Positions 5,096 to 8,940 of a stretch of 14,649 nt of DNA are shown here, piece by piece. The stretch spans positions 1-14,649 of the forward strand of contig JAJYAH010000083.1 of assembly GCA_021779635.1 (NCBI GenBank). The letters are read 5' to 3'. Each line of letters opens with the position of its first letter. The first letter of the stretch is position 1. Both the position numbers and the translations under genes were made by a program. The stretch comes from Pseudomonadota bacterium (lineage in GTDB: Bacteria; Pseudomonadota; Alphaproteobacteria; Rhizobiales; Xanthobacteraceae). Under the pieces are notes generated by a model that saw only the letters and a program-made list of their open reading frames with translations, searched no databases and was not told the DNA's origin.

Positions 5096-5329
5096 ATGCC
5101 CGCTCCCGGCGATACCACCAATCCACCCGCCACGACCGTCGCCCCTGGCGCCACAGTGCCCAGCGCCGCGACGACCTTCGCGCCGATCGCCGGCGCGACG
5201 CCGGCGCTCACCCTCACCGGACCAATCGTCCAGCCGGCCGCTGGCGTATTCAACGTCGGCTACGTGTCGATCGGCCTCCTCGACGAATCGTCCGCTTACC
5301 TCCTCGGCCTCATTGGCTCCTACATCTAA
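5096..5329 (+). CDS. Small hypothetical protein upstream of the DGR variable protein
   Basis: This 77-residue protein is Pro/Ala/Thr-rich in its first half (MPAPGDTTNPPATTVAPGAT) and hydrophobic in its last third (VFNVGYVSIGLLDESS, then AYLLGLIGSYI). I do not recognise it. Its stop TAA (5327-5329) shares its last base with the ATG of the variable protein gene (TAATG), so the two are probably translationally coupled and could work together, for example as a small virion component or an anchor for the variable protein. ATG 5096 lacks a Shine-Dalgarno sequence and lies 16 bases beyond the hairpin. The GC-rich Ala/Pro content could also arise from noncoding sequence, but the tight junction argues for a real gene. 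Confidence 0.55.
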   Translation: MPAPGDTTNPPATTVAPGATVPSAATTFAPIAGATPALTLTGPIVQPAAGVFNVGYVSIGLLDESSAYLLGLIGSYI

Positions 5330-6306
5330 TGCTCTCCAAATCCAATCCTTTCGCCCCGGCGCTTTCGCTGATCGGCGGCACGCTCAACCTGCTCGCAGGC
5401 ACGCGCGTCGCCGTCGGCACGACGCTTCTCCACGTCACGGTCAATACGCCGGTGCAAATGCCTGCGCTCGCGGCCGGCACCGACTACGCCGTCTACGCCT
5501 GCGCCGACGGCAAGATCGTGGCCGATGCCAATTTCTCGGCCCCGACCGGCTACACATCGGCAAACAGCATTAAGATCGGCGGCTTCCACTACGCCCCCGG
5601 CGGCAACGCCAGCCCCACCGCGCAGACGGGCGGCAACACCACCCCGGCGATCAATCCATGCTCGATTTGGGACCTCAAATGGCGTCCCGCATGCCTGGAT
5701 CCACGCGGCATGGCGCTCCACTCAATGGGAGTCTGGGGCGATGCCTATTTTCTGAATACGGCGTCGGACGTGAACGGCACTTCTAAATTCGGCGCCACCT
5801 GCGCGACGGGAGCCGCGCTTCCGAAGGTCCCTGCCCTCTACGGCGGCGACGGCGTGGCCTCCGAGGCTGACTTTTCGTGGCATACGGCCGCCCGTATCCT
5901 CGCGGCATTTGGGAAGAGACTGCCCACGCAGCAGGAATTTTCCGCCCTCACATTTGGGGTGACGGAGGCTACGTCAGTCGGGCCTCAGACCGTCACCACG
6001 GGCCTAGACGCCCCACGCACCTCGGCCATAGGCATCATGCAAGCGACCGGCAACCTGTGGGTCTGGGGACAGGAGGCTGCCGTCGACCCGACGAGCACCA
6101 CCGCCAATGCTTGGTTTGCCGACACTGGAGGCCGCGGGCAGAGCAACATTTACGGCGTCGGTGACCTCAAGCGAGCTATCTACGGCGCCTCCTGGCTCGA
6201 CGGCGTGTACGCCGGCTCCCGCGCTTCCGCCTGGAGCTCCGCGCCCTCGAACTCGTACAACTACATCGGGGCGCGCGGCGTCTGTGACCACCTGATTCTT
6301 GTATGA
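5329..6306 (+). CDS. DGR variable protein with C-type lectin/FGE-sulfatase-like fold (probable receptor-binding protein)
   Basis: This 325-residue protein is the DGR target. The N-terminal region (LAGTRVAVGTTLLHVTV, GTDYAVYACADGKIV) is beta-rich. From about residue 84 the sequence follows the FGE/C-type-lectin pattern of DGR variable proteins: GGFHYAPGG, SIWDLKWRPACLDPRGM (112-128), FGKRLPTQQEF (194-204, like GKRLPT..E) and GNLWVWGQEA (241-250, like GNVWEW). The C-terminus holds the diversified ligand surface, residues 285-320, with the invariant scaffold AGSRAS, APSN and IGARGVCD. Residues encoded by TR AAC codons that now differ are 285, 288, 290, 294, 301, 303, 304, 310 and 312; 308 and 311 remain Asn. 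It probably sits on the tail or another exposed virion part and binds host surface ligands. The stop overlaps the avd ATG (ATGA). Confidence 0.93.
   Translation: MLSKSNPFAPALSLIGGTLNLLAGTRVAVGTTLLHVTVNTPVQMPALAAGTDYAVYACADGKIVADANFSAPTGYTSANSIKIGGFHYAPGGNASPTAQTGGNTTPAINPCSIWDLKWRPACLDPRGMALHSMGVWGDAYFLNTASDVNGTSKFGATCATGAALPKVPALYGGDGVASEADFSWHTAARILAAFGKRLPTQQEFSALTFGVTEATSVGPQTVTTGLDAPRTSAIGIMQATGNLWVWGQEAAVDPTSTTANAWFADTGGRGQSNIYGVGDLKRAIYGASWLDGVYAGSRASAWSSAPSNSYNYIGARGVCDHLILV
6181..6288 (+). repeat. DGR variable repeat (VR)
   Basis: This 108-bp stretch aligns without gaps to 6727-6834. There are 13 mismatches: seven A-to-T, four A-to-C and two A-to-G (TR to VR), every one at a TR adenine. 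All non-adenine positions are identical. Changed bases fall only in the first two positions of AAC codons, in the frame of the variable protein. Homology stops sharply at both ends: the flanks atc/ggt and cacctg/tatccc are unrelated or nearly so. VR ends 15 bases before the last base of the stop codon's preceding coding sequence, so it covers nearly the whole C-terminus. Confidence 0.97.
6267..6288 (+). promoter_or_regulatory. IMH-like homing element: 14-base G/C tract and following conserved bases
   Basis: The 3' end of VR has an unbroken 14-base G/C run (6267-6280) followed by tctgtgac, identical in TR at 6813-6834. The Bordetella phage BPP-1 DGR likewise has a (G/C)14 element and an initiation-of-mutagenic-homing (IMH) site at the 3' end of VR that sets where homing starts and makes VR, not TR, the recipient. 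Just beyond tctgtgac VR and TR diverge (cacctg versus tatccc), which could provide the IMH/IMH* difference. The role here is inferred by analogy. Confidence 0.7.
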
Positions 6307-6728
6307 GCGAAGCGAAAGCGGAGCGGCTGCACGATCACGAACATGGAAAACCGGATACAGGTCATCTCTGTGCGGAGCAGCTCGCCATCGTCGAGCGCTT
6401 CGAGACCTGCATTGACTACCTCTACCCAGTCCTTCTCGGGATTCCTCGGGCGCATCATGTCCTCCGAGATGCGACCGTCTCCGCGCTCTTCGCTCAGGTC
6501 CAGCTCTTCTCCGAGGCCGGCAAATCGACCTCTTTGTCAAAACTCTATGCAGCAGATGCGAATCTCGCCCTGCTGCGCTTCTATTTGCGGTTCCTCTCGA
6601 GCCCCAAGCGCAAGTCCATCTCTCAGCATCAGCATCAGGTCGCGGCGGTCCACATCGCCGAAACCGGACGCATGCTGGGGGCGTGGATCGCTCGGGCTCA
6701 GAGAACCGCGAAACGACCCGCGGGGTAA
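6303..6728 (+). CDS. avd: DGR accessory variability determinant Avd
   Basis: This 141-residue protein matches the Avd pattern: a first helix (AIVERFETCIDYLYPVLLGIPRAH), a helix around ALFAQVQLFSEAG, a central helix (KLYAADANLALLRFYLRFL) and the family's characteristic last helix with HIAETGRMLGAWI. The known Avd of BPP-1 is a barrel-shaped pentamer of four-helix bundles that binds the RT and the TR RNA and is required for homing. The first 25 residues (MSEAKAERLHDHEHGKPDTG) are charged and His-rich and precede the conserved part. ATG 6303 overlaps the variable protein stop by ATGA. The TAA stop (6726-6728) overlaps the first two bases of TR, so the end of avd lies in the likely structured 5' portion of the DGR RNA. 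Confidence 0.92.
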   Translation: MSEAKAERLHDHEHGKPDTGHLCAEQLAIVERFETCIDYLYPVLLGIPRAHHVLRDATVSALFAQVQLFSEAGKSTSLSKLYAADANLALLRFYLRFLSSPKRKSISQHQHQVAAVHIAETGRMLGAWIARAQRTAKRPAG

Positions 6729-6834
6729 CGGCGCCAACTGGAACGACGGCGTGAACGCCGGCTCCCGCGCTTCCAACTGGAACAACGCGCCCTCGAACTC
6801 GAACAACAACATCGGGGCGCGCGGCGTCTGTGAC
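6727..6834 (+). repeat. DGR template repeat (TR)
   Basis: This is the invariant 108-bp donor copy. Reading in the VR frame it has 11 AAC codons, the codon typical of DGR templates because changing its first two bases gives many residues but never a stop. Nine of the eleven differ in VR. It contains 25 adenines, 13 of them changed in VR; the adenines in the two GAC codons and the ATC codon are unchanged. TR starts within the avd stop codon and is followed by a 153-base spacer before the conserved RT sequence. It is also in the same open frame as the RT gene. Confidence 0.97.
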
Positions 6835-6987
6835 TATCCCTTTACCGCCTCCGCGCTGCTCACGGGCGCGCGGACCGATCCCTTCACCGGTGGTCAGCCC
6901 GCTGGTCGTGCTTCGGCAAATACAATCCTAGGTCGGGGGGCGGCGAGTAGCGCCCTGCGTCGAAACCCGCAACCCCCGCATTTTTCT
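6835..6987 (+). ncRNA. Spacer of the DGR RNA (putative cDNA priming region)
   Basis: These 153 bases lie between TR and the first conserved RT residues. In BPP-1, the roughly 140-base spacer 3' of TR is part of the DGR RNA and contains the site that primes cDNA synthesis, so the length fits. A hairpin is visible with stem gggcg/cgccc (6938-6942 and 6951-6955). The frame of the RT gene is open through the whole spacer, but the translated sequence (YPFTASALLTGARTDPF and on) looks non-protein-like. No promoter was identified. Confidence 0.5.
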
Positions 6988-7974
6988 TTGGGCACACGCT
7001 ACCGCAACCTATTCGCGTCGATCATTGCGCCGGCTAATCTGCGCGAGGCCTATCGGCGCACATCGCTGGGCAAGCGTGGCACGCTCGGCTTCCTCCGGTT
7101 CAAAGAGGATGCGGAGGCGCGGCTCTACTATCTCGCCAAGGCGCTCGAGCGCGGCGATTACCGTCCGGCTCCTCCAAGGGAATTCCTGGTGTTCGATCCG
7201 AAACCTCGCGCGATCTCGGCGCTCAGCTTCGAGGACCGGGTGGTGCAGCATGCGCTTTGCCTCGTGATCGAGCCGATCTTCGATGCGACGCTCATGCCTC
7301 GCTGCTATGCCTGCCGCCGCGGTTACGGGACACATGTCGGCGTCCGGGCTGTCCAGGCGGAGCTCCGGCGCCAGCTCGAGTACGGCGATGTCTATTTCCT
7401 GAAAACGGATTTCAAGGCGTTCTTTGCGTCGATTGATCGCGCCCGGCTATGGCGAGAGATTGAGCGAAAAATCAGCGATCGCCGCACTCTCGAATTGATC
7501 GAGGTCTTTACGCCGCGGGCCGGAACCGGCCTGCCGATCGGGAATCTCACCTCGCAGCTCTGGGCCAATGTCTATGGCGGGGTCTTCGATCGCTGGCTCG
7601 TCGCGCAGGGCGCGCTCCAATGGCATCGCTACATGGACGACGTGGTCGTCCTGGGCGGATCGGACTGGCGAAGCATGGTATCACTTCTCCACCAGGTGGA
7701 GATTTTCGCGGAGCGCGAAATGCATTTGCGCCTCTCACGCTGGATGGTCGCGCACCACAGTCGCGGGATTAACTTTCTCGGCTACCGAATCTGGTCGACG
7801 CACAAGCTCCTTCGCCGTTCTTCAGTGGTTCGCGCCCGGCGCCGCTTGCGCGTTTTTGATCGGCATGGCGATGCCGAGGGCCGCGCCCGATTCCTCGGCT
7901 CATGGATGGGCCACGCCTCCTGGGCAGATTCGCACAATCTCCTCGCATCAATGGGCCTCTGCGCCCGCAACTAA
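6988..7974 (+). CDS. DGR reverse transcriptase
   Basis: This RT copies TR RNA into adenine-mutagenised cDNA. From the TTG at 6988 the protein is 328 residues, in the usual size range of DGR RTs, and begins GTRYRNLFASIIAPANLREAY, the conserved DGR-RT N-terminus. Motifs are: GDYRPAPPREFLVFDPKPR (56-74), SFEDRVVQHAL (80-90), RCYACRRGYGTH (105-116), motif A FLKTDFKAFFASID (137-150, Asp141), motif B PIGNLTSQ (183-190; SQ replaces the usual retroviral QG and marks DGR enzymes), YMDD (215-218) and GINFLGYR (260-267). All catalytic aspartates are present. The start is uncertain: no ATG lies between TR and motif 1, TTG 6988 has no Shine-Dalgarno sequence, and the frame is open back to 6343 through TR and much of avd. 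Confidence 0.93.
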   Translation: MGTRYRNLFASIIAPANLREAYRRTSLGKRGTLGFLRFKEDAEARLYYLAKALERGDYRPAPPREFLVFDPKPRAISALSFEDRVVQHALCLVIEPIFDATLMPRCYACRRGYGTHVGVRAVQAELRRQLEYGDVYFLKTDFKAFFASIDRARLWREIERKISDRRTLELIEVFTPRAGTGLPIGNLTSQLWANVYGGVFDRWLVAQGALQWHRYMDDVVVLGGSDWRSMVSLLHQVEIFAEREMHLRLSRWMVAHHSRGINFLGYRIWSTHKLLRRSSVVRARRRLRVFDRHGDAEGRARFLGSWMGHASWADSHNLLASMGLCARN

Positions 7975-7982
7975 CCCATAGC

Positions 7983-8231
7983 ATGACAATCAACACTCGC
8001 GCCGACCTCGACGCTCTCCAGCTCAGTGATCCCACGGCCTATGCCGCATTCGTTGCCCATCTCAAGGGCTCGCTCACCCGCACGGCGGATACCCAGGTGT
8101 ATCCGTCGACCTACGATTTTACCCTGAAGGTCGGGGAAACCGGCTACCTTCCCCCGGTGATGGGCCCTGTCGCCGATGCGACAACCGCCGATCGCTTCGG
8201 GTTCACCGCGGCTCAACTGGGCGCGATGTAA
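7983..8231 (+). CDS. Small hypothetical tail-region protein
   Basis: This 82-residue protein starts MTINTRADLDALQLSDPTAY and includes AFVAHLKGSLTRT and KVGETGYLPPVMGPVAD. It contains no signal peptide or membrane segment. I do not recognise the family. It begins eight bases after the RT stop and is followed after 26 bases by the tail chaperone, so it is either the last gene of the DGR block or the first gene of the resumed tail module. The ATG at 7983 follows aacccatagc, with no Shine-Dalgarno sequence. Balanced amphipathic composition and tight spacing support a real gene. Confidence 0.65.
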   Translation: MTINTRADLDALQLSDPTAYAAFVAHLKGSLTRTADTQVYPSTYDFTLKVGETGYLPPVMGPVADATTADRFGFTAAQLGAM

Positions 8232-8257: not shown

Positions 8258-8767
8258 ATGGACTTATCCTCTCCCTCCGCCCCCGAGAAATTCGATCCCT
8301 CCAAACCGCCCCGCGTGCGTTATGCCAACGGTCAGAGCGAAGCCGTGGCATTTCGCACGCTCTCCATCACGGAGCGCCAGCGCTACATCCGCTTTCTCGA
8401 GGAGCGCGATACCGTCGGCATCGTCGCCTTTTGCGCGGGCCGAAACGCGGGCTGGATCGACTCGCTCACCGAGGACTGCTTCGACGATCTCGCGAACTGG
8501 TTTTTCCTCGTAAATTTTTCGTGGGTGATGGAGAGGGCGAGCCGCGATCCCATCACCTCGACGCTGGTGCATCCGTTCGTGACGGCCATGGATCGGGTGA
8601 TGGCGGCGCATCCTGGTCTGACCCAGGAGGCGATGGCAACCGCGTCGTCATCCGCACGGTCGACGACCTCATCGCCGTCTGCCGAGAGCGCCTTGCCGAG
8701 TGGGAGCGCCTCGCCCTCCGCGCCTGCGCCCGTGGCTACGGCGGCTGCAATCTCGGCGCCTGCCTAG
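8258..8767 (+). CDS. Tail assembly chaperone, short form (lambda gpG-like)
   Basis: This 169-residue reading frame lies directly before the tape measure gene, the conserved site of tail assembly chaperones that coat the tape measure during tail assembly. Residues 1-124 look like a folded domain (VRYANGQSEAVAFRTLSITERQ, LEERDTVGIVAFCAG, DDLANWFFLVNFSWVMER, HPFVTAMDRVMAAHPGL). After about residue 125 the sequence becomes Ser/Ala/Pro low-complexity (ATASSSARSTTSSPSAES), which is probably the out-of-frame shadow of the extension encoded in the -1 frame. ATG 8258 has no Shine-Dalgarno sequence (gaccaattttgcc). If frameshifting occurs, most ribosomes would make this short form. Confidence 0.75.
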   Translation: MDLSSPSAPEKFDPSKPPRVRYANGQSEAVAFRTLSITERQRYIRFLEERDTVGIVAFCAGRNAGWIDSLTEDCFDDLANWFFLVNFSWVMERASRDPITSTLVHPFVTAMDRVMAAHPGLTQEAMATASSSARSTTSSPSAESALPSGSASPSAPAPVATAAAISAPA

Positions 8768-8940
8768 ACAGCCCGCCCGATTTTCTCGAGCGCTTTCTCG
8801 GCGAGTGGGCCCGCGTCGAGGCCGCTCGCCAGATCGCGCTCATCCAGTCTGTGAATTTCGCCGTCAACGACACCAATGCGGCAAACCGCCTGATCAACAA
8901 CCTCTCCGAAATCACGAATCCTGATGGCGAATTTGATTGA
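8626..8940 (+). CDS. Tail assembly chaperone, -1 frame extension (gpGT-like)
   Basis: The -1 frame becomes protein-like from about 8632 (VVIRTVDDLIAVCRERLAEW, LDSPPDFLERFLGEWARVEA, ARQIALIQSVNFAVNDTNAA) and ends at 8940, overlapping the tape measure start by 17 bases. It has no credible start codon, so it is best read as the T part of a G-T fusion made by -1 ribosomal frameshifting, as in lambda and many siphoviruses. The product would be about 226 residues. The exact slip site is unresolved: the only X_XXY_YYZ heptamer I see is A AAT TTT at 8512-8518, but it lies too early by coding quality. The start coordinate given is approximate. A single-base sequencing error is the main alternative. 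Confidence 0.65.
   Translation, partial: GGDGNRVVIRTVDDLIAVCRERLAEWERLALRACARGYGGCNLGACLDSPPDFLERFLGEWARVEAARQIALIQSVNFAVNDTNAANRLINNLSEITNPDGEFD

Follow-up and report, generated by a model that had tools for sequence, protein, structure and literature searches.

Locus organization

The window analysed here is a stretch of 14,649 nucleotides (nt), positions 1 to 14,649 of contig JAJYAH010000083.1 in the Pseudomonadota assembly GCA_021779635.1, and all coordinates count from its first letter. It carries a diversity-generating retroelement (DGR), the features of which are listed in Table 1. The parts found were a DGR-type reverse transcriptase (RT), a template repeat (TR) and a variable repeat (VR) that differ only at adenines, a C-type-lectin target, the accessory protein Avd, a spacer RNA, and an initiation of mutagenic homing (IMH) region. 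Below, fetched DNA loci carry L numbers and fetched proteins carry P numbers.

Table 1. Features of the DGR cassette in the window
Feature	Description	Coordinates	Strand	Remarks
Ala/Thr/Pro-rich gene	short gene, 77 aa	5096..5329		directly before mtd
mtd	tail protein of 325 aa resembling the major tropism determinant; DGR target	5329..6306	+	
VR	variable repeat	6181..6288	+	36 codons, of which 14 contain a template adenine
IMH region		6266..6301	+	
Hairpin	target-site hairpin	6307..6324	+	inside avd codons 2-7/8
avd	accessory variability determinant, 141 aa	6303..6728	+	
TR	template repeat	6727..6834	+	
Spacer RNA	DGR spacer RNA, Rfam RF03022 Phage_DGR	6848..6977	+	71.5 bits, gathering 50
RT	DGR reverse transcriptase, 328 aa	6988..7974	+	putative TTG start, YMDD motif
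82-aa gene	relative of BPP-1 bbp4	7983..8231	+	3' of RT; phrog_30757

The target gene matched Pfam mtd_2nd (PF21916, 2.3e-23) and phrog_11262 (7.7e-108), and residues 10-324 of its product aligned to 65-380 of the PDB 1yu3 chain (E 3.3e-83). By this sequence match to a solved Mtd, the target has a C-type-lectin fold; the VR is at the 3' end of its gene. An AlphaFold model of the window Mtd had a mean pLDDT of 49.8, which was too poor, and it was left unused. Avd matched bAvd (PF22296, 2.5e-26) and BPP-1 Bbp7/Avd (4dwl, 1.9e-33). The RT matched RVT_1 (2.7e-14), phrog_1423 (7.9e-99), and 8ub7_A (1.3e-103 over residues 1-320), and its alignment suggests the TTG start. The 82-aa gene was 48% alike to bbp4 over 77 residues and lies at the bbp4 place of BPP-1; it was matched in 55 loci, in a set with 214 RT-matching loci, and follows the RT in related cassettes.

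The cassette shares with phage BPP-1 (AY029185) the order mtd-avd-TR-RT-bbp4, the RF03022 RNA, an identical 36-nt IMH region, and a GAAA-loop hairpin at nearly the same distance, with a likeness of 54% for RT and 48% for Mtd. It differs in that about 55 residues are missing from the start of the window Mtd, avd includes the hairpin and shares an overlap with mtd, the hairpin stem has three consecutive G.A pairs where BPP-1 has eight Watson-Crick pairs, and the whole cassette sits between tail genes and a putative tape-measure gene in a siphovirus-like operon. In the phage collection, Bordetella phages gave the closest records (RT 54%, Mtd 48-49%), and the closest RT returned by the genome scan, at 68%, was that of L085, an Opitutaceae metagenome-assembled genome (MAG). 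Two IMG/VR phages, L208 and L214, have flanking tail genes, mtd, avd, RT (69%), and the 82-aa gene in the same order as the window, and L208 also has a head gene among its flanks; their hairpins, in contrast, are 7/7 Watson-Crick.

Template and variable repeats

VR and TR aligned over 108 columns without a gap, with 95 identical columns and 13 mismatches, all 13 at TR adenines (A to T in seven, A to C in four, and A to G in two). The remaining 83 bases of the TR, which has 25 adenines, were all identical in VR (83/83). The chance that 13 random mismatches over 108 columns would all fall on the 25 adenines is 2.5e-10. The initial annotation had described this gap-free pair with its adenine-only mismatches, and it was reproduced in full. 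The pair is also the longest direct repeat in the window, at 107 nt versus 37 nt for the next one (20 largest of 48 families). When other template bases were assumed, C left eight and T left six mismatches elsewhere, and G gave no match. VR forms the final portion of the mtd frame, and TR begins within the avd stop codon (6726-6728); homology starts at 6181/6727 on the 5' side and ends immediately past ...TGTGAC on the 3' side.

A single-sequence RT search of viral contigs gave two loci, and alignment queries were used instead. Repeats were first looked for in 165 loci: the window, BPP-1, two found by Mtd, and 161 found by RT. An adenine-template repeat was present in 149 of the 165 under a loose filter that also admitted other repeats; with C, G, or T as the template base, the same filter returned 70, 134, and 86 loci, many of them the same repeats read reversed. 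When at most two non-A mismatches were allowed, 199 of 253 oriented loci kept an adenine repeat. In these 199, the counts were 2569 changes of A to G, T, or C, 18 of A to N, and 67 of other bases, a ratio of 2569 to 67 that is partly set by the filter itself. All mismatches were at A in the close RT relatives L001 (13/13), L006 (11/11), and L085 (13/13), and likewise in L208 (15/15) and L214 (14/14). The adenine-only pattern is the rule in the family and is ordinary. The share of A to G changes in the window VR was low, at 2/13 compared with 1276/2569 in the locus survey (p 0.012).

IMH region and target hairpin

The IMH of BPP-1 is a 14-bp G/C run followed by a 21-bp segment with five mismatches (PMC3240598). 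In the window, a 14-nt run of G and C only (6267-6280), the same in TR, is followed by a 21-nt segment (6281-6301) that differs from TR at 8/21 positions, which is the arrangement of a common G/C run and then a differing segment that marks IMH and IMH*. The 36-nt string at 6266-6301 is identical in BPP-1 despite the 48% likeness of the Mtds, and it was held by three of the 199 TR/VR loci, the window included.

The hairpin just past this region reads GC-GAA-GC-GAAA-GC-GGA-GC. Its stem has two Watson-Crick pairs, three consecutive G.A pairs, and two further pairs closed by a GAAA loop. The loop begins 25 nt past the VR end, inside the range of the relatives. Both the place after VR and the 4-nt GRNA loop resemble those of the canonical DGR hairpin (PMC3240598). 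The stems described in that source are 7-10 bp long and GC-rich, whereas the window stem has only four Watson-Crick pairs. Relatives have eight (BPP-1), 7/7 (L006 and L085), or 6/7 (L001).

The hairpin overlaps the first codons of avd, which encode MSEAKAER. Compared at the protein level, this start was kept in three of 12 other fetched Avds (P0242, P0245, and P0299); of the rest, P0243 has MSEAQAER, four have MSGAEA, three start later, and one is different. The ~15 residues after MSEAKAER vary freely. The same core, GCGAAGC-GNAA-GCGGAGC, occurs with a GGAA loop after the VR in two IMG/VR loci, L246 and L247, which are identical over 400 nt around the hairpin and count as one site. There, avd begins just 3' of the hairpin, in contrast to the window, where it begins before it. 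That the L246/L247 avd starts after the same core, and that MSEAKAER is kept while the following residues are free, favours the DNA itself over coding constraint as what shapes the window hairpin.

G.A hairpins across BPP-1-like DGRs

Hairpins were chosen by Watson-Crick count alone, blind to the type of mismatch, and were required to have a GNNA loop, two closing pairs, at least four of eight Watson-Crick pairs, and a position +10 to +36 from VR. Of the 199 TR/VR loci, which form the first set, 168 passed, with 128 distinct sequences since some phages had been fetched twice. At stem position 3, 30 of 33 non-Watson-Crick combinations were G.A (25/27 among distinct sequences), as were 32 of 40 at position 4 (distinct 26/32). 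Tandem G.A at positions 3-4 was seen in 28 loci (23 distinct), Watson-Crick pairing in 117, and other states in 23. In 25 of the 28 tandem hairpins the arms read 5'-GA-3' on both sides; the remaining three (the window, L246, and L247) have AA/GG and a further G.A outside. Purine-rich interruptions at stem positions 3-5 were also seen in L109, L098, and L386 (G.A around T.T, G.T, or one Watson-Crick pair), and these are perhaps further G.A motifs.

On an RT tree (FastTree, 162 rows, with 52 of 141 inner branches weak), the G.A and Watson-Crick states required no fewer than 16 changes, and well-supported branches force 12 of these. The state was also clustered on the tree, with 0 of 500 shuffles as low.

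Two more scans gave 157 new loci, of which 25 were without TR/VR, 47 were already in the first set, and 85 were fresh. With the BPP-1-like query A4, 21 of 22 fresh loci had a hairpin and 14 of the 21 (12 distinct) were tandem G.A, a frequency biased by the query, which was built from 11 RTs including five from G.A loci (L092, L094, L104, L112, and L114). With query A5, made of more distant RTs, this filter found a GNNA hairpin in none of 63 fresh loci (within L446-L525). Since A5 gave 0/63 and A4 gave 21/22, hairpins of either type, Watson-Crick or G.A, characterise the BPP-1-like DGRs sampled here and do not extend to DGRs in general. As a control, 1700 random places in the 85 loci yielded 94 passing hairpins, one of them tandem G.A. 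A binomial value of 3e-4 was set aside because re-paired arms were themselves G.A-rich (0.66), and the random-place control and covariation were relied on. A scan that scored G.A more mildly than some mismatches was left out of the enrichment.

Combined, there were 189 hairpins (147 distinct): 42 tandem G.A (35 distinct), 130 Watson-Crick at positions 3-4, and 17 other. Position 3 was A.G in all 35 distinct G.A hairpins, and position 4 was G.A in 33 and A.G in two. The outer stem had a Watson-Crick pair at position 6 in 35 hairpins and at position 5 in 31, with all four pair types in use. Both outer positions were paired in 31/35; 5000 random re-pairings of the arms averaged 4.6 and never exceeded 13. 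Because these outer pairs co-vary, the stem continues beyond the G.A site. The share of altered template adenines was at least as large in the G.A class (median 0.53, 42 loci) as in the Watson-Crick class (0.48, 130), a point in favour of a working G.A hairpin. Hosts of the G.A hairpins include Tepidiphilus (L092), an Akkermansiaceae MAG (L094), Aliivibrio (L104), and Thiothrix (L114).

Literature searches on DGRs, their hairpins and G.A motifs, mostly of open-access papers, showed no description of G.A pairs in DGR hairpins, and there was none in the available text of PMC3240598, PMC12875486, PMC8144416, PMC4372165, and PMC10743442. The available text of PMC3240598 mentions no G.A pairs, which does not extend to its figures, including the eight hairpins drawn in Figure 5. 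The cassette itself is a further, ordinary BPP-1-class DGR, and the G.A variety of hairpin is its unusual part.

Recent diversification of Mtd

The protein P0121, related to the window Mtd at 97%, differs from it at 11 of 325 residues. The differences were at nine of the 14 adenine codons, none of the 22 other VR codons, and two of the 289 remaining residues, a concentration with a hypergeometric probability of 1e-12. All 36 VR residues of P0121 can be reached from the window TR through adenine changes alone. P0121 was compared as a protein, with its DNA and TR outside the comparison, so the base changes are deduced. The window Mtd was also set against the best 120 of 1245 homologues, and these against one another; 15 pairs diverged by 6% or less in residues 110-284. 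Fourteen of these pairs had 9-12 VR differences at the 14 adenine positions and 0-3 at the 22 others, and one pair had identical VRs; the pairs share members and are not independent, and the adenine positions were taken from the window TR. The window Avd is one sequence on four contigs and the P0121 cluster has six member sequences, which agrees with a change in VR without proving it.

Because the P0121 differences fall at the adenine codons of VR, recent diversification activity appears well supported by these comparisons. The initial annotation had held that adenine-specific mutagenic homing acted at this locus, and the adenine-only differences, the DGR proteins, and the P0121 variation bear this out. 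Its description of RT and Avd as intact also stands, as most of the length of Mtd, Avd, and RT is covered by matches to the corresponding BPP-1 proteins. The refuting condition that it had named, an absence of VR variation in relatives, did not hold at the protein level. The target hairpin, the RF03022 RNA, and the 36-nt string common to BPP-1 did not figure in it. Of its statement that the system is probably functional or was recently, the recent activity is upheld by P0121; the system may also be functional now, though with a non-canonical target hairpin.

The Mtds P0122, P0124, and P0125 have identical residues 110-284 and different N-terminal parts, so the front of Mtd may have been swapped by recombination. 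P0299 and P0124 are both on 13,667-base contigs. In a 197-aa frame, the beginning of a P0242-like Avd is fused to pieces like the window frame of the RT 3' end and 82-aa gene (ORF 7902-8231); TR and most of RT appear deleted, and mtd is kept. The P0299/P0124 arrangement looks like a natural loss of the DGR, with misassembly as another possibility. Since the 82-aa gene is present in P0299, where the RT is gone, it may serve Mtd and not the retroelement.

Proposed mechanism and alternative explanations

The window very probably holds a BPP-1-class DGR that forms part of a phage tail operon; the phage is uncultured and probably has a long tail. By the mechanism of BPP-1 (PMC12875486; PMC3240598), RT and Avd would copy the TR-spacer RNA and misread adenines. 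The mutated cDNA would then replace VR at the end of mtd, at the IMH, and alter as many as 14 residues on the receptor-binding face of the C-type-lectin fold. The roles of the IMH and hairpin are carried over from BPP-1 by analogy. The window element presumably homes at present, and the G.A hairpin would be functional despite its three mismatches.

Tandem G.A pairs in the 5'-GA-3'/3'-AG-5' orientation are a sheared motif that is stable in both DNA and RNA; in RNA, 5'-GGA/3'-AAG is a stable triple. On the sense strand, the G.A pairs and the GNNA loop could stack. Because the complement would need C.T mismatches, the G.A stem is expected to be confined to the sense strand, and the window structure may be a hairpin of that strand alone rather than a two-stranded cruciform. 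The sense strand would be the lagging-strand template in the preferred orientation. About one-fifth of the sampled BPP-1-like hairpins carry tandem or triple loop-proximal G.A pairs, and we suggest tentatively, as a possibility that is on balance doubtful, that homing at these sites reads a one-stranded sense hairpin and no cruciform. In the E. coli reconstitution, deletion of the stem-loop impaired repair severely but not completely (PMC12875486).

Several observations weigh against present homing, against a working G.A hairpin, or against its use on the sense strand. In BPP-1, disruption of the stem lowered tropism switching more than 1000-fold, and homing was reported to be orientation-independent (PMC3240598). 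Replication-gap tests were negative, although their authors call them inconclusive (PMC12875486). Standard DNA parameters gave the window almost no stability (-1.1 kcal/mol for the 20-mer and -0.1 for the 18-mer), and the median was -1.7 kcal/mol for the G.A class versus -8.9 for the Watson-Crick class. The sense strand was more stable than the antisense in 35/35 G.A hairpins, as it was in 95/99 Watson-Crick hairpins, and the edge was small. Loci free of non-A mismatches made up 25/42 of the G.A class and 96/130 of the Watson-Crick class. In the supported eight-row RT clade that includes the window, the other seven rows are Watson-Crick. The exact G.A core was matched seven times in viral contigs, and L246 and L247 alone follow a VR; L243, L244, L245, L248, and L249 have the core without a preceding VR as printed. 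A further pattern scan gave at least 120 stretches, probably mostly chance matches, and 11 loci from the two scans had an RT or Mtd match. Coding constraint could also shape the window hairpin, and the VR variation of relatives is known at the protein level only.

The window copy could be a fossil, in which past DGR activity was followed by inactivation through a decayed hairpin (4/7 Watson-Crick). With all mismatches penalised equally, its hairpin scored within the bottom 11 of 184 loci, its predicted stability and its Watson-Crick neighbours on the RT tree fit such a decay, and P0299 suggests that DGR loss happens. We nevertheless consider this improbable, because all three mismatches are G.A, a type that recurs in 42/189 hairpins, and because the same core follows the VR of L246/L247 with a GGAA loop. 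The retention of MSEAKAER in 3/12 other Avds ahead of freely varying residues, and the fact that P0121 differs mainly in VR, argue in the same direction.

The G.A positions could instead be unpaired, with GAGC-GNNA-GCGA read as a motif by a protein or acting as an mRNA hairpin (for avd translation or the transcript end), and the outer stem only holding it. Both GNRA loops and tandem G.A occur as motifs in RNA as well, and RNA parameters gave -3.5 kcal/mol for the window pairs. Positions 1-4 are nearly invariant in the G.A class, so covariation cannot show pairing there. Such a reading is unlikely, if to be taken seriously, since the covarying outer pairs mean that the stem spans the G.A site and since the four pair types all occur at positions 3-4 among the Watson-Crick hairpins. 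Nuclease digestion also demonstrated a hairpin/cruciform in BPP-1 DNA (PMC3240598). An ordinary duplication with random differences, arising by chance or as an assembly artefact, can practically be dismissed given the 13/13 mismatches at A (2.5e-10), the same pattern in close relatives, and the presence of DGR proteins.

The G.A hairpins are strand-asymmetric and are therefore natural test pieces for the question, raised by PMC3240598 and PMC12875486, of whether the target element works as a duplex cruciform or as a hairpin on one exposed strand. Plain inverted-repeat searches miss part of the DGR target sites, and the window hairpin itself was missed by one such score.

Neighbouring genes

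By Pfam, the DGR is flanked by Mu gp36-like, BR0599, and NlpC/P60 genes. A 1093-aa frame was taken as the tape measure, and a Pfam search gave no match for it. Judged from their sequences, the flanking genes suggest a long-tailed phage. A capsid candidate at 594-1655 was rejected, as it was without a phage relative. Frames 8258-8767 and 8686-8940 overlap ahead of the 1093-aa frame and resemble a frameshifted tail-chaperone pair; a slippery heptamer was absent from 8660-8790 for the patterns tried.

The window Mtd starts at about BPP-1 residue 56, and the missing N-terminal part of BPP-1 Mtd is what we take to be the beta-prism domain. Among the best 120 of 1245 homologues, the Mtd start lies 20 residues or fewer before window residue 10 in 14, 21-40 in 30, and more than 40 in 76. 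An N-terminally short mtd is preceded directly by an Ala/Thr/Pro-rich gene in the window, L208 (4711-5004), and L214, although the likeness of the window gene to that of L208 was not significant (E 8.1). The Ala/Thr/Pro-rich gene is perhaps a separate anchor that replaces the missing Mtd domain.

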